A DNA stretch of 64,000 nt from Diadema setosum (lineage: Eukaryota > Echinodermata > Echinoidea > Diadematoida > Diadematidae). The translations under genes were made by a program, and so were the position numbers. The stretch covers positions 29,226,132-29,290,131 of the forward strand of contig NC_092694.1 of assembly GCF_964275005.1 (NCBI RefSeq). The letters run 5' to 3'. Shown here in pieces: positions 14,043-64,000 of the stretch. The notes under the pieces are model-generated. The model was not told where the DNA came from. It ran no database searches and worked only from the letters and a program-made list of their open reading frames with translations. How positions within the stretch are numbered: the stretch's first letter is position 1; each line of letters begins with the position of its first letter.

Positions 14043-16007
14043 ATGATTATGACTAGGATGTGGCTGATGACGAGGATGAATATGATGGTGATGTTGGTTA
14101 TTATTATGAGAGTAATGGTGATGGTGATGGTGAGGATGTTGATGATACAATGATTATGATGATGACAATAATAATGATGATGATGATGAGGGGGATGAGT
14201 TAAAGCTTCATGTTGATCAGCTTTGATTTCAATGGACAACAGATTCCCACTGCTCAGATGAAACAAACAAAAACAAAACAAACAGTTGTCACCGTGAGAG
14301 AGAATTAAAATTCACTGGCCACGACAGCTTTTCAGCACTAGAATATTTCCGAGTAGGGATGAGGACTAGCTTTGTAAAAAAACACTCTGTCGTCTCATCT
14401 CAGATGATGATGATGGTTACGATGACAACAATGACCAATGTGTTGTGATGATGATAATCGACAGATCACCAAAATACATGGTATTACTTCAGAGCCTTCA
14501 ACTGAAATGTGTCCGAACATGCTAACATCATTTTACCCCTCAAATGATCGTCAGCTCCTGTGCGGTAGACACACTCGTACAAAGAATAGCTTTGTCTCCT
14601 CTGCAGGTCATCACTGTCTACATGGGCATCGTGGTGAACCTGGCGGACGCCTGGGATCCATACAAGGCAGCCAAGACAGCTCTCAACAACACTCTGGACC
14701 TCAACAACATCAAGGAATTGGTAAGAAAAAAAAACTGTATTAACAGATTGTAGTTGTATATAGGTTTCTCAGCCCTTTAGAGTAATGGTAGTTGGTCTTT
14801 TGTGCGTGTGTGATTTTACGTCAGGATTTTTTTTTTTTTTTTTTTTTTTGGGGGGGGGGGGAGGGGGCATTGGGAGGGCGGGGTCTTGTTGTTTTATGTA
14901 ACAAACTTTGTTCCCCAATAAAACCTGAGTCCAAGATATGTGGGGCAATGTTGTATATGATGAGGTGTGTGGAACCAGGGGTCCATTGCAAGACAAGTTT
15001 CAATATTGATTGCAACTCCCATAAAGTAAATCCTGAAATATATTGTCAGCTGTGTTTTTGTCAATATTCATTGCATGAACAAGTTGCCCATGAAAATTGA
15101 ACAAAACTCTCAATCGAATGCAGTTTGCATAATGATCTACATTGTAAGTTGCAGCCAATCAATGGGCCACTGATCATACTTCCCTTTGCTGCTCTAGCAT
15201 GGTCAGTTTGACCAATGCTTACAGTCATAAAATATGTTCCAGATCTTTTGATGGTAATGTATATGTGCACTTTGTAACACAACATCCTGAAAGAACTTCA
15301 TATAGCCTCGTACAGCTTCTTTCTAAGCAGTCACAGTAAATGTGGATGAATAGAATGATTGGGTGTTTGAGTTCAGAATGCAAGAGGTGATTCTACACAG
15401 AGTGTTTCAAACCAAATTCTTCATTTTTTTTTCTGCGCAGTCATAGAAATTTACCAGCTGCAACTTTCCTCTATTTTCTTATCACATGACTGAGGTCGAG
15501 GTCATAAGTTCAAGCAGCGGAGAAGGGTCATATATACACATATGTTTACACTGTAAGTCACAACCTCTCTGTGGCAGGCAATAAGGCACAACAAGAGGCT
15601 GGAGCAGCTGGTTCAGATGACCAAACACTACCTGACGGAGGGCAACCTGACGGAGGAGTACGTCCTCGACAACATCCCCAAGCTGATGAATTGCCTGCGG
15701 GAGTGCAACGTCACCATCCGCTGGCTCATGCTCCACTCGGCAGAAGGACGTGAGTGGTGCTGTAGTCTCTCCCTTCCTCTCCCTCCATCATCCACCATCA
15801 TCACCATCATCATCATCATCATCTCAATTACCGTCATCATTATTACCACCATCATCATCATCATCATCATCTCCATCATCATCATCATCACCATCATCAT
15901 CATCTTCATCGCAATCACCATCATCATCATCTTCATCTCAATCACCATCATCATCATCATCACCATCACCATCATCATCACCATCATCATCATCATCACC
16001 ATCATCA

Positions 16008-16038
<31 letters not shown>

Positions 16039-16648
16039 TATTTATAATGCGCTTTGCCCACAAGGCTCAAAGTGCTTACAATCAATTCAAAGCATGTACG
16101 ACAGTATATATAATTGGATAGATGTTACAGCTACGAACTAGTTGCTACTAAAAAGATGTGTTTTCAAGGCTTTTTTGAAAACACTGACTGATGGAGACTG
16201 TCTAACGGCAAGTGATAAATTGTTCCAGTGCTTTGAAGCAGACACAGTAAATGCCCTATCACCGGCTAAGGTGCGAGTAACAGAGTATGTGAGACGAAGC
16301 GGATCACTAGATGACCTCAAATTTCTAATAGGTGTATATAAAGTCAAACAGGCGTCTAGATATTTCGGAGCTTGATTGTTGAGGATTTTATAGACAAGCA
16401 AAACTAGTTTGAAGATTATCCGTTGCTTCAAAGGAAGCCAGTGCAACGACTTCAGAAGTGGCTGAGATGGGTAGTCCCTAGAAACCTGAAACACTAATTG
16501 GGCTGCCCAATTTTGAAGTCGCTGCACACGATCCAGTTGAGTTGAAGGAATGGAAGAGAGAAGCACGTTGCAATAATCTATACGGGATAGAACTAAAGAA
16601 CGCACCGCGTTATGACATGCAGATTGATCAATAAATCTCCTAATCATT

Positions 16649-16679
<31 letters not shown>

Positions 16680-40600: not shown

Positions 40601-43600
40601 CTCATTTCAGCCCTGCTGATTGGCTACGTTCTTGAACCCGTTTTATGATAGAACATATCCCTGAAGTTTGAGGAATTTGTGACAAGCTGTGCAAGAGTTA
40701 GGAATTATTAAAAGTCCTCATTCAATTCCATGTTCGGACATTGCTGAATGGCAAGACCGCGTAAGAACATCGTAGGTGATGTCAGTACAACGTTTGAAGA
40801 GAGAATATGAAGAAAATTTCACACAATTTCCTTTTCCTAACATGATGAAACAGCTCTTGACCTACACGTACCTCCTTCAGAAGGCAGGGAGAGTAATATT
40901 ACCCTGCGTCTACAACAAGTCAAGATAATATGTACCTTCCATAATGCCTCAAATTCTTGTTCCTCTAACTTATGTTTCTCCCCACAGACTTGTGTAGAAA
41001 AATTCAAAAGATCAAGTGGAGGAAAATGAAATAAGAAAACACATGCATTCGCAAACACAAAATATGTCCTGTAAACGTCCTTTAAGAGTCCTTTATTTTC
41101 ACTTCGTCAATCTTGTATGAGGCCCATGTAAAGAACTTTGTTGAGCTGTTCACATGTGACTTCTTAACCCTAAAAGGGCCAGGGGGCGGAATCCGCCCCC
41201 CCTCGACGTTTCGCGCTATAATTCTGTAACGCGAGAAGGCCTCATGGCGAGGCTTCTTGACTTTGTATGATCAAGTCTCGCGCAACTTTTGAGACCAAAT
41301 TTGCAACGTCCGCGCATACACTACTGTACTTTTGCGAAGCCACGCCCATTTTTGTGACAGAATGTCACCCCAAAACGGGCACAATTTAGTGATTTTGTAC
41401 ACATTTCCTATGGAAAACAGTGCTGTGTCATGAAAGTCATAAAAACCTGATTATTTTTACAATTAATCACTTTCATTGATTAATTTTGTGCTAATTATGG
41501 TAGAAAAGTGGTCAATGACAATTTCCAATGAAAAAACAAAAAAAAAAAAGTTGAAAAACAAAGAAATACATAAGAAATTCTAAAACAATAAAATACATTA
41601 GAAATTAAATGAGTTTTGGAAGTTTTTGTGATGTACAATTGTTGAATATGCTAAAACAGAGTTACAGATTAAAAATTAGACTCTCAATGCTTTTAATTAG
41701 GCAAAAATATGACCTTGACCTTAATTTACATAATTGATTAATTAAAATTAGAAATTGATTGTTTTAAAAAATCTTATGACACAATCTTGTAGATTATGAC
41801 GTGGGTCTCACGCATGCAAAATTTCATTGCGATCGCGCCACCGATGGCCAGGGATGGGGGGGGGCGGGGGCGGAATCCATCCCCCCGTCTGAGCATAGCC
41901 AAAAAAGCCCGGGCCTTTTAGGGTTAACCCATACTTGGAAACACGCTGGAAATGGTTTCGGTTTGGTTTTTACTGTGGCGTGATTGAGTGTTTGCTTCCT
42001 TGTCAACTGTGCCTCTATTTAATGATAACATGATAATAATAGTAATAAGGTCTTATTTACCCAAGGTAGCCTCTTCAGTGTTGTCACTGCTCTACCAGAA
42101 AGCCCTGCTGTTATTATTACTCTATGGTTGCCTGGTACCCAGCTATACACCTTGGTCGAGAGGGAAATAGTGGGTAAAAACATCTTGTCCAAGGACGTAA
42201 GCACTGGGCGGGATTCGAACTTGGGTCCTCCGATTGGGAGTCGGGAGTCTTATCCACAGTGCTCCACTTTTGAGTATGTTGTTTTCAAACTAAAATCTAT
42301 CTTTGTGAGGAAGCTGGCTGCCCTACAATCCTAATAATGCAATCAGAGAGCTTGTCTACACTCTTGATCATGTAGACTAACACCCTCACAAAATGCTGGT
42401 TGTACTAACAGATTTTAGAAAGTGTATGAAAGCCACATGGATTTATGGCTGCTACCCATGTGATTGCTTGTCATTGAAAAAAAAAATGATGTGAATTGAG
42501 TTTGGTTTCCAGAATTTCAGATCATGATAAGAATGACCATCTTGTTGAATGTTTCTCACATATTTGGTTTCATTATACATCATGTACTTTATTACATAAT
42601 GGTCTTGACAAAGTGGTTCGGGTGTGTTTGCTGATTTTAGCATGAAAAAGAAAACTGTAAGAAATTCAATTGCAAGTAGAGCTGTACATGTACACATTGT
42701 ATGTGGTCTACATGCACTTTCAAATCTCAAATGGAAAGATTTAAGTCACCTTACATTGAGTGGGATCTCAAAGCTCACCTGACTTTGAGTGAGATATGCG
42801 GCATGTTTTCATGATGAGTCATAGATGGAAAAGTTTTGCTGGAGATTTTGCTGACTTTCCATCAGCAAAATATGTTTTCCTTGCATTCACACTGCATCTG
42901 GTAATTGATGATGAAAAATCTGAAGACCCTTCACATGCTTTCTATAAGTTTCACATGTAGAATCTATCAAAAAATTCACTGGACTTTGAGTCAGATATAC
43001 ATCATAATTATGACACATTTTCGTGATGAGTCATGGACAAGTTTTGCCGGAGAGCAGTTGAAAGAAGAAAAAGAAAGCTGAAGATCCTTCACACACTCTC
43101 TGTGGGAATTTGGATTCTAGGATCTCAGAGCTCACCTGACTTTGAGTGAGATATGTGGCATGTTTTCATGATGAGTCATAGATGGAAAAGTTTTGCTGGA
43201 GAGTCGGTTTAGCCCACAGACTAAATTTCTACTGTAGCCAAATCTTATTTAGTTCATTGCAACCCAAAGGCTTCTCACTTCCCCTCCGTATTCAGACTGT
43301 TACAAGTGTATTGCGTGTGAATTAACGTGCACATGTATGTGCACGAACCCAAGCGAGGCTTGCTCTACTCTCGAACGACTCTAAAACTGTTAAAGGGAAC
43401 GCAAACCCAAAGGACAACGTGGATTGAGTTAAAGCAGTAACATTAGTAGAACACATCAGTGAAAGTCAGGAAAATCAGGCAATTGATGCAAAAGTTATGC
43501 ATTTTTTACAGTTTTGGTGTTGGAACTGCTGGGTAAGGAGACTACTGGAGGTTATGACATACAAGCTGTATGAGTGAACTACGTACAATATAAAGAAAAT

Positions 43601-46600
43601 ATAAAGGGAATTCAATAAAAATTCATTTTCATGAAAATTACACATTCCAACAACTTGATGCTGACATATGTTAGGGGTATCACTTATTCCTCCTGCTTTC
43701 TGAAAGCGGTTAATAGTCAAGTACTCTTTCATTTTGCTGAAAAAATGAATTTTTGTGGAATTCCGTTTGTATTTTCTTTATATTGTTGTCCACTCATACG
43801 TCATAACCTCTAGTAGTCTCCTCATCCAGCGATTCCAACACCAAAACTGTAAAAATTCATAACTTTTGCATCAATTGTCCAATTTCCCTCAAACTTTCAC
43901 TGATGTGTTCTACAAATGTTAATGCTTTTACTCCATTCACATTGCTCTTTGTGTTTGCATTCCCTTTAAACTGTAATGATTGACCACATAATGACTAACA
44001 GTCCTAGACCTGTATATTGTCAGGAACACACTGTACAGTGTATATACAGTAAAGCATGTACGGTATAGCATGTCCTAACCTCGGGCTTGGAAGAACTACT
44101 TCACTGAAGTTTCAGTCCCTTTAAATTTCATCTTGGGACATAAAGGCATAATTTACCATTTGCAGATGAAACAAAAACCCAGCTTTGGTGCTTCAAAATA
44201 GTTCTAAAATGTGAGTTGGGGATGAAAACAACCAACTTACAAATTTGAATCAGTGCAATCAATGGTTCATATTATTAAATATACAAAATGTGAACAATAG
44301 TTATAATAAAAATGTTTTAAGACTAAACTGTCTGCAGTTCTGGTTAAGTTGGAAATATAGTGACGTCTCTTTCTATTTTTAGCTTTATTACTATTTTTTT
44401 TTCCATGGTAGGATATTTTTTGATACAGCTGACCTACCACTTATCAAATGTGATATCTCGGACATTTTTTTTTAATCACTGCTCCCAATGGTAAACAGTA
44501 CCTTTAAAGGGACATACATATCTCATTTCAAACACATCAGCCCGAATTCACAAAGGTGGTACAATCTTGTCCATGGTTTAAACCATGGACAAAGACCGTA
44601 GTTTTTTTTATGGGGCGCCAAGTGTCGCATGGCCTGTTGCGTTATGAAATCAGTCATTTCGTTACGAAATGTTGTCATTTCATTTAATACAAAATTATAA
44701 TTTCGTCAACAAAAAAAAATGATAAAGGTTGTACCACCTTCGTGAATTTAGGCCATCAGGTGGAACATTCTGCACATTCATAATTTCTTGCAAGTCATCT
44801 AGGATGCGGTGGAATGTGTTTGTGGACTGTGTGGAAAACCCCCAAGAAACCACATGCTATCCCCCCTTCACTCTCACACCCACGCAGATCCAGTCAATTC
44901 CCGTAAGGACAGGAAGTCTTTAAAGATATATGAAACCTCAGCTCAGGTTGTACAAGCAGTATGATTGATTTCTTTGAAGAGAGTATCGCTGGAGCATCTA
45001 TTTTTATATAAGCCACTTAACTCGCTTAAGATTGCTTGAGGTCATTCCTGTAAGCACAGTTGCACAGGTGCCCCAGAAGCTTGTAGTACTTTGAATGTTA
45101 TTGAAAGGAATTTGAGATGATATTGCATGCGCCAGAGCAAAATGTGTCACATGATTTGAGATGAGTGTATATTATGTGGTGCTAACCAAGGGCAATATTT
45201 TCTGGTGTACTACGAGATGAAGTACGTAATGCAATATATAGTGCAATAAACATGTTTTTTTCACAAAATTACAGTCCCCTACCTCTGAGAGTTTTTAAAG
45301 GGTGTGTACAGTTCTGGTCGAGGTGAGGATTTAGCTTCTAATGTTTTGCGAGATATTCAGAAACCACTCTATGAGATATCAAAGAGCATGCAGTTCTAAG
45401 GGGTATCAAAAGTTTATTCGATGAAAATCGGTTTTGAAATGGCCGAGATATCAAAAAACAAGGTGAAACAAAGAGATCCTAATAAAGTTGTGGCATGTCG
45501 CCTTTTATTATTAGCACTTTTTTGGATATCTCAGCCATTTGAAAACCAATTTTCATCAAATAAACATTGAATCCTTCTTAAAATTACATGCTCTTTCATA
45601 TTTCATAAGAGGCTTTTCATTATCTCACTTAGGAATGTTCAAAACATGAATCCCCACCTCAACCAGTACTGTACAGTCCCTTTAAATGCGGTACTTGCTG
45701 TTTGTTGATCAGGATATAGCAAAGCGTGCAGTTTTCTCTCTGACTTTGTTGTCTCACATGTCTAACCCCCCCCCCCCCCCCCCGTTCAGACTAGAAAGTT
45801 CTCATATAGATTTACGACGTATGGATATAGGACATTTTTATGTGTCTGAATACTCTAACATTGAAACATCATTTCAATATACATCGTATATCGAAACAAT
45901 GATTTGAGTGTCATTTCAAATCATTATCCTTTATCCATTTGACATATATTTGTGTCTGAACGCTCTCACATACATACGTCGTATGAGTAGGTGGGGCTTA
46001 TTCGCAGCGCCCGCGGAGTGTTCACATATCGGCGGTGCGGACTTATCAGGCGGCTGACAGATTGATTGTGACATAATAATGATCTGGCGCGAACTAGCGA
46101 ACTACCGGATGAATCCAAGGCAGAGCATAAACACTATGCGCAAAGCCTGCATAAATTACGTACTGTGCATGGAAGAGAATCACATCAAGAACTATCGCCT
46201 GTGCACTAGGTCTGAATGCTCTGATACGATTATCGTTTTACGGGATGCTGTGTCTGAACGCTCTCATATCGAAATGTCGTACCAATATGCGATAATTTGG
46301 TGTGTCTGAAAGCCGCATCTCAAACTTTTCGATAAAGAAAGTTCCATGGCATTGAAAAAAAAAAACACTTTTTCCCAAAGGCTACAGCCTCAGAACAATG
46401 TGGCACACACTGGGGGTATACACCATGTCACACAAAGAGTTTATGTACAGTTGTACAAATATACAATGTACATGTATATGTTACACAGTGGATAGGTATG
46501 GAGATATACACATGTATGTAGGGCACAGAAATGTCATTGTGGTTTGTGTTGTGAACTGCTAAACTGTTTGATATGTGCATTGTATTGATTGCTGGTGTTT

Positions 46601-49600
46601 GACAGTTCATATTTCCTATTTATCTTTGTCAATGCCAGAGGAAATAGAGTTGGTGAAGAGAGTTGTTTTTTTTTTTTTTTAAATGTCCATTTTCCTATAG
46701 GAACAAAACAGTTTCCCATAGGGATTCACAAATGAGGGTGTACAGTCACCTCACATTTTTATTGATAGGTGGTGTCCACAATTTTGGGCATGTGGCTTTA
46801 ACGCTTTATGTGCCTTGGTGTAAACCCCCTGTGTGCCACATTATTCTGAGATTGCAACATAGTCTTGCTTTGGACAAACGTTATGTTTGCTGTTGTTGTT
46901 GGGGTTTTCTTGGGAGGGGGGTTGGTTTGTTTTTTTCAAAACGATGTGGGATAACTTTTAAAGATTTTTTTTTTTTTTTTTATCCTGCACACATAATGGC
47001 CAAAATTGGTAGAAAAAATGCCACGTTTTGCTTTGATGTAAATTGTGTGAAAAATCTATGATTGCTTTCCTTTCAAACGACTAGCAGATACAGTATTGTA
47101 GAGGCATAACTTTTGCACACAAAACAGTGATAGAAACTTCAGATTTACTCACAAATCCTCTGGGGAACACTCCTTGATAGTCAATCACCTCGTAAAATGC
47201 TACATGTGATAGGAATGGAATAGCGAGAAACGCTTTCATTGGACTGCGGCATCTGGCGATTTGTCGATCGGTTTGGGCGGGCTTGCACATGTACGTTTGA
47301 GCAGAATATGCGAAGTTGGCACGCCGTCAACTGAGTCAGGCATGCGAACGTGGCACATAAAGAGTTGATGGGAAAAAAAAAAAACACAATCTTGACCTCA
47401 TGCTTTAAGTCATGCACATGTATGTGCGAAGATTCCTAGCTTCTTGGTTCTTGCTCTAGGAGTGTAGCTCATGCTCTTTCATTGCTGTCTTCATCTTATT
47501 TCAGGGCATTTGACCGCTGTGAGTGAACAGCAATCCAAAGATCAAAATCTTTGGCCACAGTTCTAGTGATGTTTAGTTTATACAGTTAGTCTCGTTCTTT
47601 CAGGGTGTTAACAGTTTTGAGGTATGAAGCTTAGAATATGTCACATACTTTTTTTTCTAGGATGTTTGACAAAAGTTTTGACATGATATTGCAATACCAA
47701 AATGAGACATCACAACCACAACTAGCCATGGACATTTGAGGGTCACAAAAATTTGCTCTTTTTTTTTTTCGCATGTTGCTCTCTAGGCCCAATAGCTTTT
47801 TGGAATATTGCATTGGGACTGTTCAGGCAGAAGAATAGCAAGACTTTAAAAAATTCAGGCTGTTGCAGAATCAGTAAATTTTTGCTTTAAGGTTAGTAAA
47901 TCTTGTGTTGGTTACAGTCTAAATTGCCTTCCATGGTTGTGAACTGTCCCCTACAACACTGCAAATTTTTTTATGCCTCCGCCTGGAAGTGACGCTGGAG
48001 GCATTATACTGTTTTCAGGTTGTCTGTCCTTCCGTAATCAATTTTGTGGACAGCGTAACTAAAAAAACTGTTTGAGGTATCGTAATGAAACTTGGCACGT
48101 ATGTACAATGAGTGGGTGAAGTTGTGCCTATCAACTTTTGGGTGCACATGCTCAAGGTCAAGGTCAAATGCTCAAAATTTCACTATTTCCCCCATACCCC
48201 ATATCTATGCAATGCCTGAAGGTATTTTCTTGAAACTTAGTGTATACACGTACTACCCAATAAAAATTCTCTAGAGAGAGTTTTGGGCTATGAGGTCAAA
48301 GGTCAAAGGTCAAGTGAATATATTGAAATTTCACTTTTTCTCCCATTTATATACATTGTATATCGGAAATGGTTCAAGGTATATTCACAGAACTTGGTAC
48401 ATAGAAGGTATTCATGTACTTACTGACAGTGATTGCATGTATCTTGGGAATATCGGGGTGAAAGGTCAAGGGTCAAAGGTCAAGGTCAACTCCTCAAAAT
48501 TTCACTATTTCCCTCATATCAATGCAATGCCTGCAGGATTTTTCTTGAAACTGAGTGTATACACATATTACCCAATAGAGGTTCGTTGCAAAAGGTTTTT
48601 GCCAAAAGGTCAAAGAGCAAGTTAAAATGCTAGATTTGAGTTCTTCCTCCATTTCTCAGAAGTGGCCAAGGTATCATCATGAAGCTTTAATAGTATATAT
48701 TTATACATGTACTGCCTGACAGTGATTCTCTTGGGAATTGTAGGGTCAAGGGTCAAAGGCTAGGGTAAAATCTTCAAATTTTACTCTCTAATACTGAAAT
48801 TACACTTTTTCTCCATACCTTGAAAATTACTCAATGCATTTATGAACCTATAAAAGAAGTGAAGTAAAAATCCTCAATTCCCTAAATACCTGCTCTCTTA
48901 GACAATATAGCAGTTCATCCAATTAAACCTGGTTAATATTTTGCCAATTATCTGAAACTGTCATCACACATTGTCAAGACATTGTACCATAGACCGATCA
49001 GGAGAACCATGCATTATGGCAGAGGCATACCAGTCGCCTAGTTATTTCATGTCATTAACTTTTTTATTGTTTGGCTGACATCTGCACATCTACATGTACA
49101 TGTGATCTACATGTACATGCACTGTACATAATCTACGACTATTGGGGAAGTATCCGACTTCAGAGTAAGGTACTAAAAAGCAAAAGTGTCCTTTTTTCTT
49201 TGGATAACATGAGCTGCAAAAAGTACTTATTTATGGCAAAATAACTGTTGACTTGCAATCTGCGTGACATATGTACATGACTACTTGTGAGCAGCTATCA
49301 GCTTAACCTCAAAATCAGTTTAGAGATACTTATCAAATGTACACGTATGTTACAGAATTGTCTTGCCTAAATCTCCTTAACCCTCCATGTGCCACATTTA
49401 CACTGTATTTCCTGACATAATGAAATGTGTGTACATTTGACTTGGTAGCACAGAAGGGGTTAAAGGAGAAATTCACCTACATAGAAATGTGGATTGAGTG
49501 AATGCAGGAATATTAGTAGAACACATCGGTGAGAGTTTGAGGAAAATCGGACAATCCATTCAAAAGTTATGAATTTTTGAAGTTTCTGCTTAGTCACGGC

Positions 49601-51293: not shown

Positions 51294-51394
51294 GTGAGTA
51301 CACATCCATACACCTTTGTGTCCCTGTAACAGTGCTGGTGTAGAAAGACAGCATTGAATGTAGTGTGGTGGTGTCAGTGTACAGTGTACATGTA

Positions 51395-51696
51395 CAGAGA
51401 CTCCAACTCTCCCGCTTTCAACGGGAGATCTCCCGCCGAAAGCCCATTTTTGCAGAATCTCCCGTTCTCCCGCTTGAGATTTAATTTCTCCTGCTTTAAA
51501 TGATTTTTTATTTGATTTCATTGTATGTTGAAAAATAAGCTTTAGATAGCTCGAGAGAGCATCTAGAACCCTAGACCGCGAGGAACTTCGTGCTCGTGAT
51601 GTGCACTTTGCACACATCAAGTTGGAGTCTCCCGTTTGCTAGGGGTTTCAGGCGGGAGAATCTCCAGATCAGAAGGTGCTTGGGGTTGGAGTCTCT
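51395..51696 (-). mobile_element. 302-bp inverted-repeat element, copy 2
   Basis: Same length and ends as 2161-2462 but opposite orientation. It lies 101 bp downstream of the exon 24 donor. Confidence 0.75.
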
Positions 51697-52272
51697 GCAT
51701 ATACATTGCACACATAGAATATGTACAACATGTTGGTCAGTGGGTGCACATGTCAGTTTTTGTTTTGTTTTGTTTTTTTCTAAGCTGACAGTTTAATAGT
51801 GTGTTTGTGTCAGGTGTATCATGTGTGTAGTCAACAGTACTACACTGTATAGTGTCAGTGAACTAGTTTCTGTGTCATTGTGTCAATGTTCCAGTGCCAG
51901 CAATGTTGTACAGTGAATGAGCATTGGTTTTGCCAATTACAGCATGCAAGTGTTGATACATGTATACCCTCACATCACTGTTTGGTGTTTGTGTAATAGT
52001 TTATTTTACGTCAAAGAAATCCCTCATGTTTTGAAAGTCTGAAGCAACTACACAGTATGAATTTTCATCAGGATCTGACTCACAACACACATCTGATGAA
52101 GATTGTCTTCGAAACATTTTCATATTTTTCAGAGCCAAATCTTGGCACCGCATTGTACGTGTATGTACCTTTAAAGAAGCGCCACACAAAAGGGCATTCA
52201 AGTTGACTGTTTGAAAATGCTCTTAATTGTACACTTTCTTCCCTGAATTTCTCTTTCTAATTGATATAATTT

Positions 52273-52884
52273 AATGAAATTTAGCTTTATCCTTTTACAT
52301 CAAACTATCATAGCATTGTGAAGTAATGGCATGTGAGGAAAGAAGAATAGGTTTTTGAATCATTAACCCCCCCCCCCCAAAAAAAAAAAAAAAACAAACA
52401 AACAAACAAACACAATTTGCATGTTTATGGAGGAAGAGAGAGTTACGTGGGGGGTGTGAGTCATCATGAGGTATAGATAGTGTGTGTTTGAAAATGACAA
52501 ATCTGTGACTAATGGCATCATTGTCATGTGATGTACATTCCAGATGCAGTAGGAAGTTAATGGCTGTGAAGTACAACACGGCAATCTTAAAATGAAATTT
52601 AGCTTTATCCTTTACGTCAAACTATCATAGCATTATGAAGTGATGGCATGTGAGGAAAGAAGAAGAGTGTTTTTAAATCATTGCACCCCTAGAAACAAAC
52701 AAACAAACAAACACAATTTGCATATTTATGGAGGAAGAGAGAGTTAGGGGTGTGAGTCATTATGAGGTAGAGATACTGGGCGTGGAAAAGACAAATCTAT
52801 GACTAATGGCGTCATTATCATGTGATGCAATATCCAGGTGCAAAAGGAAGTTGGCTGTGAAGTAAGACGTGGCGATCTTAAAGG
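52273..52884 (+). repeat. Tandem duplication, 318-bp offset
   Basis: Unit 1 starts AATGAAATTTAGCTTTATCC at 52273 and unit 2 the same at 52591. Both contain 'catcatagcatt(g/a)tgaagt', an (AAAC)n run, and 'tttatggaggaagagagagtta'. Each has its own homopolymer changes. Confidence 0.85.
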
Positions 52885-53225
52885 GACTCATGCAATGAAA
52901 TTAATGGATTTATGATACCCTGACCATGGGTTAGTATGTGTCAAAAAATGATGTGACTGTGCATCACAGAATCAACAAAAAGTGGCATGCCCGGATTCTA
53001 CGTTAGGACTCAAAATTTATAGGTGCAATGAGTTCAGCCCAGTCAATCTTGAGTTGTTTTACATCCTATGAAAGAGTGATTTTTCTTTAACTTTATTCTA
53101 AAACTTCTGAACATAAACCCAATAGAATTTTGTGGGTTGTTGTTTTTTGTTTTGTTTTTTTGGCTGTTTTTCAAGAACACCTTTTCTTGTGTAGAATATT
53201 GTGATTAGGTACACTATGTCTTAGA

Positions 53226-53487
53226 GGCCCCGTTGCAAGAAACTCAAGTTGCGTTTAAACGCAACTCACATCCTACGCAAGTATCTCACGCAACTTGCGT
53301 TGGATACTTGCGCGCCGTTGCTAGAAGAGACTTGCGTTTGATTGCAACTTGCGTTTGATTGATAAACGCGCTATCGGAACGAATTGTCATGGACGAGCCT
53401 AATTTCCGGTATTTCCCCGAAAAAACGGAACGCGCGTCTCCAGTCAGCGTAGCTCTCAATCGTCTGCTCCCTGTCGTTGCTCCACCG
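53226..53487 (+). promoter_or_regulatory. CpG-rich first-exon/promoter candidate of the Myb/SANT gene; possible transposon end
   Basis: The sequence changes abruptly here from AT-rich intron to CpG-rich DNA. It starts (tta)GAGGCCCCGTTGCAAGAAAC and then has inverted words 'aagttgcgtttaaacgcaact'. The segment ends in a strong donor, CCGgtaagt at 53488. An ATG at 53389 opens MDEPNFRYFPEKTERASPVS, but joined to the next exon it would stop after ~50 codons, so it is better read as an upstream ORF. The 5' edge, after TTA, resembles PIF/Harbinger ends. Both readings are inference. Confidence 0.4.
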
Positions 53488-55195
53488 GTAAGTATTGGTA
53501 AAATTGAAGTCGACTAATAAATGCTATTTTAGTCGTTGAAATGATGGTATTTTGAGTGAATTATTAACAGCTTCAATTATTTAACGTAAGTGGAAAGCAT
53601 AGATAAAGTTCTTTTCGTTGTAATAAGCATTTCACATGCTAATAATAAAAATACTTCCGATAATAGTTACGTGCTCACTCACGATCGCACGGTCGTGCGG
53701 CGATGCGGGTGAAGCTGCTGATGATGTGCTAGTACCTGTAACGTTAGTTTCGAACGTTAATTTGATTTCATTTGGCCTGCGAGTGTCGGCTTAGGTCCCC
53801 GCGTGAATATCCGCTGAACGCTCTAAAGTGTGCTGTATTTCCGTTCCATTATAGGGTCTATCGTCTGACGTTACTTGTGCTTGTGGTAGAAGTTAGATAG
53901 AAACGATCTAATTAGGGCCAACAGCAACACTGCAGAAACCCTTGTATCAGGCCTAACATGTTACTATATAATAGATCTAGGTAGCCCTAGCCCAGGCCAG
54001 GCCCAGGGCTAGTTTTGTTTCAGGGTTTGCCTTTTTCATTTGCTTTGGGTTGGGTTGGTTGTAGCACTTGCGAACCCTTGTCTAACGTTTAATAGTCTTT
54101 ACTCTTAACCTGTTTTAGTCTTTATTGTAATTAGAGATAGACTATAGCCTGAGCTAATCTTATTAAGAATGTTGTTGAGTTTAAAAAAAAAAAAAATCCG
54201 TGGGGCAGACATAGGCAGGGAGTGGTGAAAACTGCTTGAGACCAACAAGGACATTAAGAGTAACAAGCCCATGATTTGCCCAGTGCTATATGAGTATGAT
54301 TGGTACAGCCTAGTAGGCCTATTCTTCTTCTTGTTGTTTACTGTCCAAAACCCCTAAATAGTTGGGACCAACCGGACAGGGTTTTAAGAAGCATTCTTTT
54401 AACACTGAAGCTAATCTAACGTTAATTATAAGTATAGGACCTTGGCCTAATAAATAATTCACATAGCAGTCTTGTATACATGTAGCTAGATCTAGGCCTA
54501 TAGCATGTTTTAAATCTTGATACAGCCTGCTACCTCTTGAAATTCACAGTAAACAGGGCAGCAAAGACCTGAAGCTTCACAAAAAGTTTTTGATCTTTAT
54601 GACCTCTTGCCAAACTAGATTTCAATCTGGAAATTAGCAAGCGACTTAAGTCGCGGTTCTTATTTTGGACCGCTGTGCACCAGTAGTTGTGCACTGAATC
54701 GTGATCTAATAGTCATCTTGTGCAATTGAAGTTTGTTGTGATGTTTATTATAGTCAACAGCAGCCAGATTACAAATGACTAGTGAGCTCACAGAGATAAT
54801 TTACATTTAATGCTAGTCAGCATCACCTCCAGACAGCACTGTGCCATGATTGGTACCTGGTACAGCTACAGCATGATTCTTATTGGTGATAATGTTTAAG
54901 CACGCAAATTAATGGAGTTGTATTACAGTGCATAACAATTGTGTGTGTGTGTGTACGAATCAAGGACCTTTGTAACTAACATGGCACAAGAGAAGGTATT
55001 ATAAATTCCACTTTTTTTTTGCAAAATTTCTTATATAATTTTTATATCTCGAATATGCATATCAGAATGTCATTATATTGACAAACAATCTTCCGAAAGA
55101 TACACTCAGGACTTCATATATTTTGGAAAGTGAATAGCATGAAAATCATGAAGTGTACCAAACTTGGGCATGTTACTCTACATAGCACTTAGAAC
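53488..55195. other. Intron of the Myb/SANT gene, nothing recognised
   Basis: AT-rich from about 54000, with a (GT)n run near 54937. I see no coding exon and none of the missing WASHC5 C-terminal exons. Confidence 0.4.
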
Positions 55196-55660
55196 CTATC
55201 CGTAATCAAATGCACAGTTTTTCCAATGCTGGTCGAGCTTATCATTAAAAGCATTAACAGAGCATGCTGAGACCACATCTTCTGAGAATTCTACATATGG
55301 ACCACTGTTGGCAAAAAAATACTTGCTCACATCCACTCTAATTACATACCATTTTCCAAGCTTCATTGAGTGACCACGAGTTCTCACAACACTGTTACAA
55401 CTCAACATATCACTTAGTGTGATAATTACCATGCAAATATTTGTACACATCAATCATGTCCCCTCTTTTTGCCTGTAACTGAGAGGTGGTAGGGGTAGGT
55501 GACACAGGCTATAAGAGTCTGACAAATGTCTCATTCCTGGAATCATTTTAGTGGCCCTTCTTTGAATACTTTCAGGTAGTCTCCTTTGCTCCCCTAGTTT
55601 GAATGTTATATGGACAAGTTGATGAGTGAAGAATAATTTGCTGATGATTGTACTGTCCAT
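55196..55660 (-). mobile_element. LINE fragment (CR1/jockey-like RT C-terminus), minus strand
   Basis: Minus-strand frames give ESIQRRATKMIPGMRHLSDS and, in another frame, VVRTRGHSMKLGKWYVIRVD followed by SKYFFANSGPYVEFSEDVVS and ACSVNAFNDKLDQHW. This is the characteristic C-terminal block (RRATK.IP, TRGHS.K, YFF, VN.F...LD.HW) of non-LTR reverse transcriptases common in marine invertebrates. The RT core is absent and the frame is broken. Confidence 0.85.
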
Positions 55661-56001
55661 TAACAGCCTGTACTTTTTTATTACATTGTTATACCTCCGT
55701 TATCTTGTAGGGTAATGGTATTCTGTGATTTATGCATTGACCTGTGGAAATGGTATTTTATTTCCAGAATATTTCATAATGGATTGCTCACAAAATGAAG
55801 TGGATTAATATTCAGTATCAATACAGATGCTTTCATATGCCATACAAGTCTGCAAAGTCAGCTGTCATAGTCATAATGTCAAACATCATTCATCGACTAT
55901 GATGTTAAGTGATTAAGAATGAATCACTTGGTGAATTTTTCTGTATCAATGGTTCTGAAGTTATTATCTTAAGCACACATTATCTCTGTCTTATTTTTCA
56001 G

Positions 56002-56026
56002 GTTGCTAGCTCATATCGTCAAAATG
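56002..56026 (+). CDS. Myb/SANT gene exon 2 with the start codon at its 3' end
   Basis: A 25-bp exon between 'tttttcag' and GTAAGT. Only its last three bases, ATG at 56024-56026, are coding. After splicing the context is CAAAATGGAA, a good initiation context. The first candidate exon (53389-53487) would join here. Confidence 0.65.
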
Positions 56027-59000
56027 GTAAGTCATTTTCAGAATCTGTGTTTTAGTGTCATTGCCAAATTGAAGTTATAAAATTGTGTAATATACTCTGC
56101 ATGTCTTTGTTGCCAATACAAATGAGAACTACTTGAATGAACAATTCTGGCTGTAATTTGGCATTCTTCACTTACAGTAAATTATAACTGATTTTCAGAT
56201 GCTGGATCTGTTATTTCATGTTTTCTGCAGAAAATAAAACAACAACAAACCAAAACAAACAAACAACTCTTAGATATCTATCCAAAATAGGCAGGGCATG
56301 AAAATACAAAGGATACTATATTTCCAACATGAATGTGGACTGAGTGACAGCAGCAGTAGTACTAATGCACATCCATTAAAGCTTGACATAACTTTGTCAT
56401 AAAAGGTTGCAAATCTTACAGTTTTGGTGGAATTATATCTTGATAGGAACTCTGTACACCATATGATGTCTTGATCAATATCAGGAAATTATGAAAAATA
56501 TTTAGAATGTTTTCACTTTACATATTAATAATAAAGCAATCAGTTAACCTTTTTCAGAAAGCAGGGTGACTGATATTACCCTAAAAATTATGTCAGTAAC
56601 AAGTTCCATTACTTTTATTGTATCATTTGCAAAACAAAACAAAAAGAAATCCTTCAAGATGTTACAATTTTACTTCTAAGCATTTTCCATGTCCGAAAAT
56701 GAGAGTATCAGCAGTTTTTGCCAATCTTCACTTTGTATAGGTTGCATCTGTTTCTGTTTGTTTTTCAGTAAAGTGTTACCATACATCACTATTGGAGGTA
56801 GCAATATATTCATAATTTATAGTTTTCATGAAGAAAAACAAATTATGTAAACGGACATTAAACTATACATTTAGTGAAATCTGCATTTTTCCTCTTAAAT
56901 TTCAGGAAGATCTGTCAAGAAGAAGGAGAAGTAATTGGAGAGAGGCAGAGGTGATGGCTTTGTGCCAATTTGTGGGAATGCACAAGTCTGCCCTGTTTGG
57001 CAAGGCAGGCCATGCCAGCGTTCCAGTAAGTTAGCCTGTACTGAAAGCTTTTACACAAACTTATATTAACACTTGCTTCATTAGAACTTCACTATTCATT
57101 CAGATTGTTTTGGTGCATGTATTTCTCACATACAATTTTTGTACCAAGACATATTCCTGGAACCCCCCCCCCCAATATAATTAGAGAGCATGTACTATCA
57201 TCTTTCAGTAATTCACAAACATCACAGCATCACATGTGCACATCATGTTCTCCAATTGAATGTATTCATGTAGGTATAATGTGTTTAGATATGTAGAAAC
57301 AGTAAAATGAATCTATATACAGGTATGGAGATACCTTGGCCAGTTATGTGATGGATGTATTATTATATAGATGATGACTGGCGGGGGAAGGAACATACCG
57401 AATGTTCCACCCGAAGGGTTTAAAATGCTAGTGAGGGAGGTTATAAGTCCCGAGAGGAAGTGGAGGGACTTAACCTCCCGAAATAGCATTTCAAACTCTG
57501 AGGGTGGAACGTTTGGTACATGTTCCCAACAACAAAGGTCATCATCTGTTATATTATATGGGTTAGTCAAATACGTCAAAGTAACGTCAGCCACCTATCA
57601 CATGCACAATGCACTCGATCGCTCGCTCGCGCAGAGCCAAATTCACTGTGCGCGCGGTCCTAGGCCGTCTGTCATTTGTTACGTGAAAATGTTTTCCCAT
57701 GGGAGAACATAACAAAAAATGTTCGCCCATGGGCGAACATAACGAATGTGCCTCCATCACGTGACTGTGTTTAGCCAATCACTAACCGATATTTGACTAA
57801 CCCATTTAATATTTTGTTATGACTGTGATGAGATGGAGGCCTCAGAGGATGTGGACTAAGTTCATTTGATTGCCTCATAGGGATAAGTTCACCTTTGTAT
57901 TCATGGTGATTGAGTAAATACATGAATATCTATTGAACACATCATTGATAATTTCAGGCAAATCTTGAAATATTTTCAAAACTTACAAAATATCTTCTTA
58001 CAATTTTCTATGCTTTGACTGGTCTCTACAAAGACTTAGCTACATTTTATGATGTGACATGCTTAGAAGAATTTCAAAAAAAAATGTAGGATATTCCACA
58101 ATTGATATCATTTATTTAATTCTCTTTGAAAGAACAATTTTCTTCGACTGAATGTTACTTTAATATATTGAGGGTAACATTTTCACAACAACTTCCTCAC
58201 AACAGCGCCCACGACGTCAACTTCGCTTCCCACTCATTACCACACCTATCGCTGGCTCCAGAAGACGCCCTCACCGACACAAGTCATCCACACCACCGGC
58301 GTCCACCCTATCTAGTCCGGACTCCAATCTCCGGCCACGACCTACTAACAGCCAAGTTAGCCCTCACAGATGTACTCCACCATCAACACACTCCGAGAAC
58401 AATAGAACGCATCAGCGACCACAACACTCCACCTTGCACGCCAACAGCCGACGCTCAGCCCGCCTGCGAGCCCGCCACAACCGACCACTTCCATCTAGGT
58501 CCGCATTCTCCATATATAGCCCGCCTCTTCTCAGGTCACGCTTCACTTCTGACGAAGGACAGTCAACCTGCCCGAAACGTCAAGTTCCTTGGTTCTCCCA
58601 GTTATTCTTATAACTAGACATCTTGCTCTACCTTCACTAGCACCTTTGACTCAGTATTTAATTTCTCTTTTTTTCTCTCTCCCCAACACTTTTGTCTGTT
58701 TCTACGTTACTCATCTTTTCTGTTCTCTTCTCTTTTCTTCTTTTTCATTTTATTTCTTCCTTCCGTACAACCCAACGGTCAATTTCAGGACCACTTGTAT
58801 TAATTTAAAGTTTTCTTCACAGGTTATTTCTCTTGCCTTGTCCCCTCAGGACTACACTTTAACCTTATTTTAATCTATCATTTTGCATTTCTCTCACAGG
58901 AACCTTTTCAGGATTTAACTGTCATCAATTTTCCTCTCCATAATTTTTTTTTCTCTCTCCTCTGCATCATTTATTTCTAAGAACCACCCAAGCCCCCTCT

Positions 59001-62000
59001 CTTTTACTTCTTGAATTTCATTTTTTCTTTTTCTTCTTCTTTTCTTTGTTTTCTCCCACCCCCCCCCCCCTCTCTCTCTCCCTTCTCTCTACATAGTCTC
59101 ATCTCTCCTCGACTTACCTTTCCTTTGCGGGATTATACGTCCTTTCTCCATTGATTCCGCATTACATAGTCCACATTGTTCGCCGACTTCGTTCTTCTCT
59201 TGGTTTCTTGAATCTTCACTTCTCTCTCCTATCTCCATGATTTCCAACATTCAACTCCTCCCTCTTCCTCTTCCCTTCTTTCTCATCTCTCTCCTTCTAA
59301 CGATGTCCGAACATCTTACTTGTTTCTCACTCTATTCTTCCTTACCACTCTCTCTGTTCCTTTCTCTACCGTCTCCACTAGTGCAACTTCAACTTCTAGC
59401 CCATTACTGTCCCCCACTCTTCACTTTTTGCCCTCCGTACAACCCCCATATGTCGCTTCCCTCTTCAATTCTCCTCTTTCCAGGCTCTTCTGCCAAACAA
59501 CGATCCGGTTAAGGACTACATACACATGTTGTCACCGCAAATCTTTCTCCCTCATTTTCCTTTCCTTCTAAAAGAAAATGAAATCATTCATTTATGCATG
59601 AAAATGAATATATCTTGAATTTCCTTCATATTTTCTTTGCATTGCTCTATGAATGTTAGCTAGGACAGCTAAAGTTGTCTCTTTATGCAGTGATGACAGC
59701 ACTGAAACTTGATAAATTTATAACTTTTAAATGCATTGTCTACTTTTACTCAAACTTTCAGTGATGTGTTATAGTGTTAAATCATTCACTCTATCCACAT
59801 GTTTAGTTATGGAAATTTGTCCCTGTATATCAATATAATCCATAACTGTATGATTACAGTACATTCATGCTACTCATTATCTTCTTCATTTCAGCAACAT
59901 ATACATTTTTTTTTCATACACAAAAGAGATATTTGTTCACATTTCCTCAAAATGATACTATATAAACAGTGGTGAAAGATGTGAAGGTGTAGTCCAGAAT
60001 ATTATAAATCGATAATATGTCTCTGCTCCTATTGTATGCATTCATGATTAGTTTCTTCATTTTCATTTATGTTTTTAGGTGGAAAAGCGGAAAAAAAGGT
60101 ATTGGAAGAAAGCAGCCGTACATTTGCGAGCAGTTGGTTTCTTCAGGGAGGAGGAGGAAGTAAGAAGAAAATGGGGTGACCTAAAGCAGAGGGCACTGAA
60201 ATACAAGAGTGCAAGAAATGCAACTGGTAACGTTACATATCAATGCATGCCTTTTCTGTTCACGCTCGCCGTATTCTTGTAATGTTTCAACATGCATAAC
60301 ATTTTTCATGCAAATATTACTGAAAAGAAATGAAGTATGATTTGAATGGGAAATGCGTTGTCATGAATCTGTAAAGACCCATACACCTAAACACACCAGT
60401 CAATGTCTTAACAGGGCAATATGCCATTGATCATATTTTATTGAAGCTAAAGATTTGAATGGTGCATTTCATATGTATATTGAAATTATTGTCAGACTAC
60501 ATATTGCATTGATTTTAAGTGAAAAGTTAGTTCCGGTAAGGACTTGTGAACCCGTCTTGCACCATTTCATATTTGCTTTGCAATATATTGAAAGAGTCTA
60601 CCAAGAAACTTATACTTGGATGACACGATTTGATGGGATGATGAGTTGTTTCAGATTATTTTGAGATTTAAAAAAAAAATTAAAGTCAGTTTATACCAAC
60701 TTCCAGAAGGATCAAGGTTTACTTGGCCTGAGGGACAACTCAGCCCGCTATATTTCAGACAATTTATACGCAGTTAGTGATCGCCATACATAGGCGCATG
60801 TTCATTTTGTAGGCGCGCCAAAGAGGTTCTTTGATATTTGCGTTGTATGAACTTGGCCAAAAACTGCGACCATCCAGAACACGATGCGCTCCCATAGTAC
60901 AACACTTTACAGTCCTTTACTGTAATCATACAGAGGGACAACACAGCCCCGCCATCAAAGTGAGGCCGAATTGTCCCAGAGTCCGAGTCAGCCTGACCCT
61001 GATCAGATAAGTTCTGATATGCAAACATTTCTTGTTAATATTTTGCATTTTTCGTCGTTATCCAACGGATATCTTGTTATTACAGCATTATTCCTTACAT
61101 TTTTTAGGCATACATGTATATTTTGGAGCAAAATTTGAGAGATTTGCAGGCATACCAGAACTATGTTTTGCCTCAAACTTCAGTCCATTTATTCTTTTGA
61201 AGCCTCTGCTAATTTTTGACCCGCTACAACAAAAGGATCCTAAAGTCGCTGACGGGTGAGCCGAGAAAATCGAGTTTGAAGTTAGATCATCAAAATCCGT
61301 CAAAACATTCGGATTTCTGTTTTTGACATAATTTTGCAGTGTAATGTATCTTCTATCATCTGCCGAAATTTCGAAGCTAAATGATCAAAGGAAAGGCAAG
61401 AAAATAACATTTTTCTTGGCCATGATTTTCCGACTTTCAACGGAACAGAAACGTGTCCGAAGATTTGGATTTAGCGCCGCAGCTAGACCCCGCCCTAGCA
61501 ATGAGGGAGTGATCTCATTGGTCAGTGCGTTGCATCCTGGTTACTGATTGGTCGTGCGTAGACCGCTGGCGCTAAGCTTGAATGAACATCGTGGAGGTTG
61601 CTAGGAGCGTACCTTCTATTGTCAAAGGTGAAAACTGTCTTGCTTCCCCTTGATCATGATAGCGTCGGAAGGAAATCTTTGCAGGAAGTTTTCTCGAAAC
61701 GCTGATTTCTTAAACCACTCGACATGCGCTAATAAAATCATCGATATATCCGCAACCGAGTAATTTCATGAGTCATGTATTATATGACATTAAAGTGGAA
61801 TACTAAGGGAAAAATGTCATGTCATTTTCAGAAAATTGTCCTCCCCCGACTTTCGGATCCTTTTGTTGCAGCGGGTCACATTTTTATGATATTCTAACAA
61901 ATCTGTATCCGATTTCAGTGTAATTCATTACCATAATTGCAATGAACAAATATCTAATTCCAAATACAATGTGTAAAATGAAACATCAGCATCGTACCAA

Positions 62001-64000
62001 AGTAACAAAAATAATCACACAGCATAGTGTTGAATCAGCGCATTTTATTACATTTTTGTGAACAGCCTCAGTCATAATAAATATACTTCTTTAATATCTT
62101 GGTACTGTGTCATTAGTCATTGTAATGGCTGTTTAAAAATAAAATTAATCTTAGGTAAGTTGAATTTACCATTAATCACCAAAACGAGCACGCTAAAGAT
62201 ACATGTAAATGTAATCTACACAACTCTTCAATTTTCAGATATTGTATTGGTGCAATTGATAGTTGTATGTACAGCCTCTGCACTTTTTTCCAGTCATATC
62301 CTAGCCCGGTGTCAACCGTGATCATAATGATTGCAGTGAACAACTGATTAGTCCCAGATGAATTGAAGCAAACAGCATTTCTACAGAAACAAACACATTG
62401 AGAGTATGCAATTGATACACTTTAATCCCTCACTAGATCATATAATTCCTCATATATTGAATCATAATTATAATAATTCAAATAACCTTTTTAACTTACA
62501 CGACTCTTCAATTTTAAGATATTGTATTTGTGCAATTGATAGTTGTATGTACAGCCTCTGCAATTTTTTCCAGTCATATCCTAGCACAATGTCAACAGTG
62601 ATCACAATGATTGCTATGAACAACTGTTTAGTCCCAAATGAATTGAAGCAAACAGCATTTCTACCGAAACAAAGACATTGATAGTATGCAATTGATACAC
62701 TTTAATCCCTCAATAGATCCTATATGGATTCATAATTCAAATTACCTTTGTGTCATATATGATACCTCTCATCTTATACCAAAATTGTAACATGCAGATC
62801 ACTAACGGAGTTTGTTATTGATTGGAGGGAAACGGCAAATTACTTTTCCTATTTAATGTAGGGCAACCAGGAAACATTTACCAATTGGCAAATTTATGGG
62901 AAGGAGGGATCCTTTAATTTTACCATTGTAATTGCAACAGATAACTGAAATAAGCAGTATATTACATAATCAGGCCAGACATGGCCTCTAAGCTCTATCA
63001 ACCAGAGGGTTCAACCATACATCACTCAGAGATCACAAGGCATTACAGAAGCAGGTGTTCCCTTTGTAGTTAGTATCAGTGTATGAGCAGACAGTCACAG
63101 TGTATGGGAATTTTGTTCCAAGTTCTGGCCAAACATAGTCATCTATTAAAGTCTACCTCTCTCAACTGTGAGTGTATTGTTTTCTATGTGATATGTACTC
63201 ATAGCAGGTCACTTCAAATATGTTCACTGATGTTACAAATGTGACATAAACATACAAGTTACTGACTGTTGACATATTATATTACATGCAGGTGGAGGAA
63301 GCCTTGAAATAAAACCCTTGATGGAGGCGGTACTTGAAGTGTTGGCCAAGGAGACTGTTGTAGGTGTAATGGGACAGGAGACTGAAGCGGGGTTCAGTTC
63401 ATCTCAGGTTGGGAAAGTGTTTCATGGCCATTTATCATGTTTTTTAATGAGCATTTGAATTTTTATTTTTCAATTTCACAAAAATAAAGTTTCCAACAAA
63501 ACATTCCAACTCCTGTCATTTTTTATTCAAGAAGTAGGCCTTTCTGTTCAAGTTTGGATTGTAGGATTATAACATTGTAAAAGGAATTACATTTTGATCA
63601 AAAAACTTGAATACTGAATTACTTTAATGCATCACTTTTTCTTTTAAAGGTTAATTTCTGTTTCAAGTTATAAGTCATAAAATTGAGAGTTAATAAGGAA
63701 AGATACATGAGGTAAATCGCAATAGACAATCTTTTAATGGATAATTGTTTAAAAATAGTCCTCTTCAATAGATAACATGAGCTATTACCAATTTGATTCT
63801 GTTTACTGTTTGTCCCTTTAATAGAGCACCAACGAAAGTGGAACCGACACTGCCTCAAACCTTTTGAAGCAGTTGCTTGAAGGGGCTGCATCCTCCCCAG
63901 TGCTCCCAACGATTTCAACTCCAGTGCAACCACCCACTCCCATCATTCCAGATCGTCCAGCTTCTCTTCCCCCTACATCTGATCCCCCTGCTACCCACCC
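56024..64000 (+). CDS. Myb/SANT-like DNA-binding protein (NAIF1/MSANTD-like), partial at 3' end
   Basis: Exons 56002-56026 (ATG is its last three bases), 56906-57025, 60079-60226, 63292-63407 and 63825-64000+. Phases agree throughout, giving at least 187 residues. Residues ~10-90 form a Myb/SANT-like helix-turn-helix domain: W12, W50 and W73 give the tryptophan triad, with SNWREAEVMALCQFVGMHKS, KRYWKKAAVHLRAVGF and EEVRRKWGDLKQRALKYK. A GGG linker, then LMEAVLEVLAKETVVGV, is the second block usual in this family. A Ser/Pro/Thr-rich region follows at the window edge. Such proteins are commonly partners of PIF/Harbinger transposases or host genes domesticated from them. It bears no relation to WASHC5 and lies in its last visible intron on the same strand. 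Function beyond DNA binding is unknown. Confidence 0.85.
56906..57025 (+). CDS. Myb/SANT gene exon 3 (residues 2-41)
   Basis: Encodes EDLSRRRRSNWREAEVMALC then QFVGMHKSALFGKAGHASVP. Acceptor 'aaatttcag', donor GTAAGT, phase 0. Confidence 0.85.
57558..57805 (+). mobile_element. 248-bp TIR element (ATGGGTTAGTCAAATA)
   Basis: 16-bp perfect inverted ends at 57558-57573 and 57790-57805. Contains 'atgggcgaacat' and 'cccatgggagaac' words. It is preceded by another palindromic stretch at 57391-57532 (GTTCCACCCGAAGG / 'ctgagggtggaac'), possibly part of one larger element. Confidence 0.75.
57880..59825 (+). mobile_element. Family A MITE split by a ~1.4-kb insertion
   Basis: Left part 57880-58139 begins GGGATAAGTTCACCTTTGTA. 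The right part from about 59576 resumes with family A interior and ends 'gttatggaaatttgtccctgta'. The insertion is described separately. Confidence 0.65.
58140..59575 (+). mobile_element. Inserted retroelement-like fragment, pyrimidine-rich
   Basis: An open stretch to 58615 in one frame is Arg/Pro/Ser-rich and ends SDEGQSTCPKRQVPWF before a stop. The DNA at 58549-58578 (CTGACGA, a hairpin, GAAAC) is a hammerhead-like core. Similar 'gacgaaggac...gaaacgtc' motifs occur near the ends of Penelope-like retroelements. Downstream, 58620-59570 is CT-rich and non-coding. Family assignment is tentative; no reverse transcriptase was found. Confidence 0.4.
60079..60226 (+). CDS. Myb/SANT gene exon 4 (residues 42-91)
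   Basis: Encodes VEKRKKRYWKKAAVHLRAVG then FFREEEEVRRKWGDLKQRAL and KYKSARNAT. Carries the second and third domain tryptophans. Acceptor 'tgtttttag', donor GTAACG, phase 1. Confidence 0.88.
61217..61878 (+). mobile_element. TGACCCGC-ended TIR element
   Basis: Left TGACCCGCTACAACAAAAGG and right CCTTTTGTTGCAGCGGGTCA: 32-bp TIRs (61217-61248 and 61847-61878) with two mismatches. 662 bp, CpG-richer than the flanking intron. No transposase. Confidence 0.88.
62224..62760 (+). repeat. Tandem duplication, 280-bp period
   Basis: Units start CTCTTCAATTTT at 62224 and 62504 and share 'gatattgtatt(g/t)gtgcaattgatag', 'gtacagcctctgca' and 'gaattgaagcaaacagcatttcta'. High similarity; the short frames in both are paired products of it. 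Confidence 0.88.
63292..63407 (+). CDS. Myb/SANT gene exon 5
   Basis: Completes a Gly codon, then GSLEIKPLMEAVLEVLAKET, VVGVMGQETEAGFSSSQ. Acceptor 'acatgcag', donor GTTGGG, ends in phase 0. Confidence 0.82.
63825..64000 (+). CDS. Myb/SANT gene exon 6, runs off the window
   Basis: Encodes STNESGTDTASNLLKQLLEG, then AASSPVLPTISTPVQPPTPI and a Pro/Ser-rich stretch, open to the last base. Acceptor 'tttaatag'. Low-complexity sequence typical of the linker after the SANT domain. Confidence 0.78.

Follow-up and report, generated by a model that had tools for sequence, protein, structure and literature searches.

A Myb/SANT gene assembled within intron 24 of Diadema setosum WASHC5 very probably belongs to a large NuwaI-type transposon

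Results

WASHC5 across the window and past its end

The locus was analysed as a window of 64,000 nucleotides from the sea urchin Diadema setosum (NCBI RefSeq assembly GCF_964275005.1, contig NC_092694.1, here C10; C10:29226132-29290131); positions refer to the window, or are called window-extended where the numbering is continued past its end. The main features are the greater part of a gene for WASHC5 (strumpellin) and a Myb/SANT gene that lies on the same strand in what is assembled as a WASHC5 intron (Table 1). A tblastn comparison of the human WASHC5 protein (1159 aa) with the window yielded collinear plus-strand exons from 4412 to 51294 that match human residues 1-985, and these have been spliced into a model of 24 exons and 983 codons with 0 stops, in which 699 of the 984 aligned columns are identical to human. 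The script that built the model accepted GT-AG junctions and open frames only, so both features are partly there by construction, and what the model shows is the availability of a suitable splice pair at 23 of 23 junctions rather than an independent test of any of them. The identity of the gene is based on PF10266 along its length and on the order of the exons; a comparison of exon 24 with solved structures gave no significant match.

The C-terminal part of the protein was not detected in the remainder of the window. Residues 986-1159 compared with 51294-64000 give a best match of 19.2 bits, a score equalled by 86 of 100 shuffled queries, while in the control all five 174-residue segments of residues 1-870 match the window at 1.6e-17 or better. 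Likewise, no Strumpellin match was found by Pfam in the six frames of 51294-64000 at E up to 1, the positive control being two plus-strand frames of 13700-26405, in which Strumpellin is recovered at 1.7e-92 and 3.6e-37. The intron preceding exon 24 is already 12,010 bp long, and hence a following intron of more than 12.7 kb is unsurprising.

A PF10266 profile search of the whole genome (912,680,840 bases in 102 contigs) returned 22 matches, all of them on C10 and with profile positions between 1 and 1084; the C-terminal ones, at C10:29316875 and 29320322, are on the same strand as WASHC5. The C-terminal exons begin about 27 kb past the end of the window on the plus strand of the same scaffold, and the junction of donor 51293 with acceptor 90755 restores a K codon and the reading frame; for the short exons 28 and 29 the best tblastn E-values are 6.1e-6 and 0.003. 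With matches extending to human residue 1157 out of 1159, the gene looks complete at the sequence level, with 29 exons that continue past the window on its own scaffold. Without the transposon described below, intron 24 would measure about 27.5 kb (1,932 plus 25,620 bases minus a 12-base overlap). A 1213-aa open frame proposed for two C-terminal WASHC5 matches was not reproduced, stops being in frame around 90744.

An earlier note on this DNA, made from the letters alone, had described WASHC5 as collinear and in frame up to a good donor at 51293 and as lacking its C-terminus within the window, and the 24-exon model and the tblastn and Pfam searches for the last 174 residues agree with it on both points. 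The check that it proposed, an extension of the scaffold past 64000, recovers five more exons on the same scaffold and strand. What it called the last WASHC5 intron is actually intron 24 of a 29-exon gene, and its suggestion that the gene may be broken fails on the in-frame splice to the exons downstream.

Table 1. Coordinates of the WASHC5 gene, the Myb/SANT gene and the transposon at the locus
Feature	Position	Strand	Remarks
WASHC5 (strumpellin) exons 1-24	4412..51293	+	spliced model, 983 codons plus 2 nt
WASHC5 exon 24	51190..51293	+	PF10266 at 1.3e-9; donor AA/GTGAGT, phase 2
WASHC5 intron 24	51294-90754	+	39,461 bp as assembled; four more introns follow
WASHC5 exon 25	90755-90884 (window-extended)	+	in-frame junction from 51293
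WASHC5 exon 26	91337-91433 (window-extended)	+	
WASHC5 exon 27	94207-94366 (window-extended)	+	
WASHC5 exon 28	from 102267 (window-extended)	+	short
WASHC5 exon 29	near 103996 (window-extended)	+	short
Window copy of the transposon	53226..64000	+	assembled to 65034, then scaffold gap
12-mer GTCTTAGAGGCC over the left junction	53218..53229	+	also opens the next contig, at 65135
Left terminal inverted repeat and subterminal region	53226..53356	+	GGCCCCGTTGCAAGAAACT..., clustered ACTTGCG/CGCAAGT
Myb/SANT gene, whole	53389-64211	+	five exons, 289 aa
Myb/SANT exon 1 (ATG)	53389..53487	+	also in the four other copies examined
Myb/SANT exon 2	56906..57025	+	
Myb/SANT exon 3	60079..60226	+	
Myb/SANT exon 4	63292..63407	+	
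Myb/SANT exon 5	63825..64000	+	runs on to the stop at 64211, past the window

The Myb/SANT gene

The exons of the Myb/SANT gene join at good splice sites into one frame, three of the introns being near 3 kb each, and the window holds 219 of the 289 residues. The spliced window part matches PF13873 at 1.6e-8 (34.8 bits), as against 11.5 bits in the unspliced frame, and the full 289-aa protein matches the same profile at 2.1e-8. A short exon had been read by eye at about 56003-56027; it breaks the frame and was dropped from the gene. Comparison of the protein with solved structures gave no significant match, and no paralogues were confirmed in viral contigs.

Exons 2-5 (to 64000) are CpG-poor, with 10 CpG observed versus 29.7 expected, and a CpG peak is seen at 53.2-53.8 kb, equal or nearly equal peaks being present in other WASHC5 introns. 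The interpretation of this pattern as CpG decay in an old resident gene under selection has been withdrawn in view of the 99%-identical copies described below, which make the CpG-poor body a property of the element family and not the result of decay at the window site.

Copies of the gene within a mobile unit

In a protein search of the same genome, the whole multi-exon Myb gene was found, besides C10, at C2, C9 and C15 (twice), with more distant relatives at C14, C51, C6, C17 and C13 at least; scoring was limited to the best candidates, and the number of copies is therefore a lower bound. The 289-codon frame is open in the window copy and in all four others (5/5), and in the C9 copy the inferred acceptor of exon 3 is preceded by TG instead of AG. 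In four of four pairwise comparisons the similarity to the window starts at 53226 and continues to the contig end at 65034, some copies carrying insertions within this shared unit. Over the main blocks the window copy is 98.7-99.4% identical to the C2 and C15 copies (99.05% in the comparison with C2) and 95-97% identical to that of C9.

At C2, C15 and C9 the unit extends 7-8 kb further and closes with an inverted copy of its own start, the element ends being GGCCCCGTTGC...GCAACGGGGCC and the lengths 18,955 bp (C2), 19,962 and 25,657 bp (C15) and 20,176 bp (C9). No right element end was found inside the window, as is to be expected of an element longer than its windowed part. The two ends of one aligned C15 copy match imperfectly over about 130 bp, and five of the nine ACTTGCG/CGCAAGT sites of the window fall within 78 bases, at 53276-53353. 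The flanks carry 3-bp CWG duplications, namely CTG/CTG at C2, CAG/CAG at C15 and CTG/CTG at C9. Each of two C15 stretches (C15:26160001-26200000 and 26298001-26328000, about 132-138 kb apart) contains the transposon, one copy with extra inserts in Myb intron 1; as these copies have common flanks and the stretches are 99.7-99.8% identical along most of the compared length, outside the element too, the two copies have been taken as one duplicated insertion and counted once. A CWG target duplication accompanies three of three independent insertions with both ends seen, a count that leaves out the window copy (left AGA, right unassembled) and the copy at C20 (right CTG, left unassembled).

Matches to DDE_Tnp_4 (PF13359) were found inside the C2, both C15 and the C9 copies, on the strand opposite to the Myb gene, and PF13359 is matched at C20 as well. 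In a C15 copy two presumed transposase exons match PF13359 at 1.6e-11 and 1e-8 and a third presumed exon matches HTH_Tnp_4 at 0.0055, below the cut-off, the joints between these exons having been inferred from separate open frames. Patterns for the D, D and E motifs were matched in four of the five stretches scanned (C2, both C15 and C20); in the C9 stretch the two D patterns were matched and the E pattern was not. The transposase domain is absent from the assembled part of the window copy, whose transposase half is off the window scaffold, and Pfam found no transposase on either strand of the contig after the gap (L009 from 1135) or of L010. At C51 and C6 there are related pairs of matches, Myb on the plus and DDE on the minus strand, with about 9.6 and 11.1 kb between the partners.

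The left junction, the scaffold gap and the half-element at C20

The window copy halts at 65034 and is followed by 100 N (65035-65134). At C20, the right half of an element stands directly after another 100 N (L043:1220-1319) and has a CTG right flank, and its first element base is the one that comes after 65034 in the C2 and C15 copies. Probably, a single contig had led from WASHC5 across the element into C20 and was cut in mid-element, so that its two parts came to lie on different scaffolds.

The left neighbour triplet of the window copy is AGA, with no CWG. The contig after the gap starts with the 12-mer that spans this junction, followed directly by TGATCTG, and to judge from its letters it resembles an unoccupied site in which CTG is the target (GGC-CTG-ATC; ACTATGTCTTAGAGGC-CTG-ATCTG). 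A similar flank, TTAAGAGGCCTG, is located ahead of the element in the C9 insertion. To the left of the C2 copy, a similar GTCTTAGAGG is found in inverted orientation within a repeat that is also present on the contig after the gap, so that the 12-mer could belong to the repeat. The two occurrences of this repeat, L009:1187-1351 and the C2 left flank, are inverted copies of about 76% identity with GTCTTAGAGG near the edge in both, and the repeat is possibly another Harbinger-like miniature element.

Other repeats around the locus

A palindromic miniature transposon of about 575 bp is present in WASHC5 introns at 5575-6145, 12157-12671, 32644-33087, 43416-43969 and 49460-50035, and another copy (64478-65034) is inside the large transposon, the contig ending within that copy. 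The inverted repeats of about 300 bp at 51395-51697 and 2161-2462, which are 79% identical and have ends read by eye as GAGACTCCAAC / GTTGGAGTCTC, are likely another miniature transposon. A retrotransposon reverse transcriptase occupies 28754-30788, in two frames, in a WASHC5 intron (RVT_1 at 8.4e-30 for the first part). Intron 24 also includes a P2RX7_C domain (2.2e-15) on the minus strand at L010:466-918 (about 74,466-74,918 window-extended) and, at L011:2000-5400, a long repetitive stretch in which both strands have open frames, the longest of 469 aa. Further 100-N scaffold gaps are located at 994-1093 and, past the window, at 119128-119227. Two candidates were rejected: a miniature transposon interrupted by a 1.5 kb insert (58.07-59.58 kb), whose flanks failed to align as one copy when joined, and hammerhead-like motifs seen by eye near 52070 and 58550, the Rfam matches in 51294-64000 being at chance level and none of them a hammerhead. 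In the whole window no Rfam family reaches its gathering score.

Discussion

Very probably, the Myb/SANT gene encodes the accessory DNA-binding protein of a NuwaI cut-and-paste transposon 19-20 kb long, which the assembly places within intron 24 of a WASHC5 gene that is complete in other respects. On the genomic comparisons made here it does not appear to be a host gene, and a same-strand nested host gene is not supported. A resident or domesticated NAIF1-like gene, nested in the WASHC5 intron on the same strand and spliced independently, would fit the intact five-exon frame, the NAIF1-type layout (alignment score 83 versus at most 52 in 500 shuffles) and the CpG-rich 5' end with a CpG-poor body, but similar CpG peaks occur elsewhere in WASHC5 introns. 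Same-strand nesting as such is ordinary: according to PMC8467205 it applies to 76 of 296 simple nested pairs in human and to 55 of 248 in mouse. The near-identical intron-bearing copies at other loci with sharp common ends, the inverted repeats, the target duplications in the other copies and the transposase nevertheless make a host gene highly improbable. Equally little credence can be given to a WASHC5 gene that is truncated or broken in the sequenced haplotype: C-terminal exons undetectable in the window and a scaffold gap between exons 24 and 25 speak for it, but these exons lie downstream in order and orientation, with an in-frame splice available from 51293.

The alternative that deserves most attention, though we consider it unlikely, places the element truly on C20 only, with an assembly chimera at 53226 and a WASHC5 intron 24 that has no transposon in any haplotype; it denies the element's place and not its nature, and its probability overlaps with that of the explanation preferred above. 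The right half on C20 starts, past a gap, exactly where the window copy stops and has a CTG on its right, the left junction is AGA and not CWG, and the contig at 65135 opens with the 12 junction-spanning bases in the manner of an unoccupied site. All of this speaks for a chimera. Against it, the element's first base is exactly where the junction lies, a position that a random chimera would rarely hit; a CTG is found six bases off in the empty-site sequence, and a similar flank precedes the C9 element; and the left half in the window is about 1% or more divergent from the copies at C2, C15 and C9. The opening of the post-gap contig, so like an unoccupied site, makes heterozygosity or polymorphism at this place probable. 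Of a heterozygous insertion that suffered some minor loss of sequence at its left junction and an assembly chimera without insertion, the former is favoured as the probable course of events, because the junction coincides with the element's first base.

The earlier note had left three possibilities: nesting on the same strand, a misjoin, or a WASHC5 gene that is broken. The Myb/SANT gene that it recognized is real by the PF13873 match of its spliced exons and does lie in the WASHC5 intron in the assembly, as the gene of a transposon and not an unrelated host gene; what had been taken for a complete 5' half is a nearly complete gene, with 219 of 289 residues in the window and the stop at 64211. 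The suspicion of a misjoin was partly right, given the gap at 65035, the C20 half cut at the same base, the AGA left junction and the repeated 12-mer. Chimeric transcripts, which the note had also raised, are conceivable, the inserted Myb gene running in the direction of WASHC5 transcription, but 51293 joined to each of the four Myb acceptors leads to a stop within 4 to 27 codons. What looked like a nested gene becomes a transposon insertion, and the locus illustrates that a gene model can be confused, and a scaffolded assembly interrupted, by one and the same large repeated element. In annotation, the Myb gene is best kept out of the host gene set, and the two parts of WASHC5 are to be connected over the gap.

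In Harbinger elements, as described in PMC9179366 and PMC9710019, the Myb-like protein interacts with the transposase, allows its nuclear import and binds the element ends, and the transposase then excises the element. The Myb-like protein of the present element would bind the terminal repeats, for which the ACTTGCG/CGCAAGT cluster at the left end is a plausible binding cluster, and would help the transposase to enter the nucleus and cut. The element may have inserted recently at a CTG in the WASHC5 intron, and WASHC5 would normally splice over it, leaving the protein unaffected. A more ambitious interpretation, to which we give an even chance, is that of a recently active, apparently autonomous NuwaI transposon of 19-26 kb with two genes containing large introns, which moves together with older nested miniature transposons and is still polymorphic at WASHC5, a filled and an empty allele being represented in one assembly.

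Comparison with known systems

NAIF1 is a domesticated Harbinger Myb-like protein of vertebrates and is single-copy. The protein described here shares with it the Myb/SANT-like domain, and a weak alignment to the NAIF1 sequence extends beyond the domain; unlike NAIF1, the Myb gene is here within a repeated mobile unit. PIF/Harbinger elements with a Myb-like ORF, as described in PMC9179366, PMC9710019 and PMC4482050, resemble the present element in having two genes, DDE_Tnp_4, Myb/SANT and GC-rich inverted ends. Target duplications of the PIF/Harbinger group are given as TWA in PMC4482050, whereas the element described here has duplicated CWG in three of three insertions, and an assignment to PIF/Harbinger sensu stricto was rejected for this reason.

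In PMC4482050, NuwaI is defined by a CWG duplication, a Myb/SANT ORF together with a DDE ORF, and terminal inverted repeats (TIRs) usually starting with GGG; it is listed there from animals only, with autonomous candidates averaging about 4,462 bp and TIRs of 12-61 bp. The present element agrees with this description in its 3-bp CWG duplications, Myb/SANT and DDE genes, inverted ends and animal host. If the CWG is taken as the duplication, the ends, GGCCCCGTTGC, start with GG, and the G of CWG makes this GGG. The element thus appears to carry the signature of NuwaI (PHIS superfamily, PIF/Harbinger-like), being filed by these features. It departs from the published NuwaI elements, as described in PMC4482050, in its length of 19-26 kb against the mean of about 4,462 bp and in an imperfect inverted repeat of about 130 bp (one copy aligned) against 12-61 bp, and further in a Myb gene of five exons with three introns near 3 kb and a transposase that is apparently multi-exon. 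In summary, the element combines the parts expected of a NuwaI type with a length some four times the published mean and with introns, which the Myb gene contains and the transposase apparently does too; this makes it a useful case for studying how such long cut-and-paste elements are mobilized.
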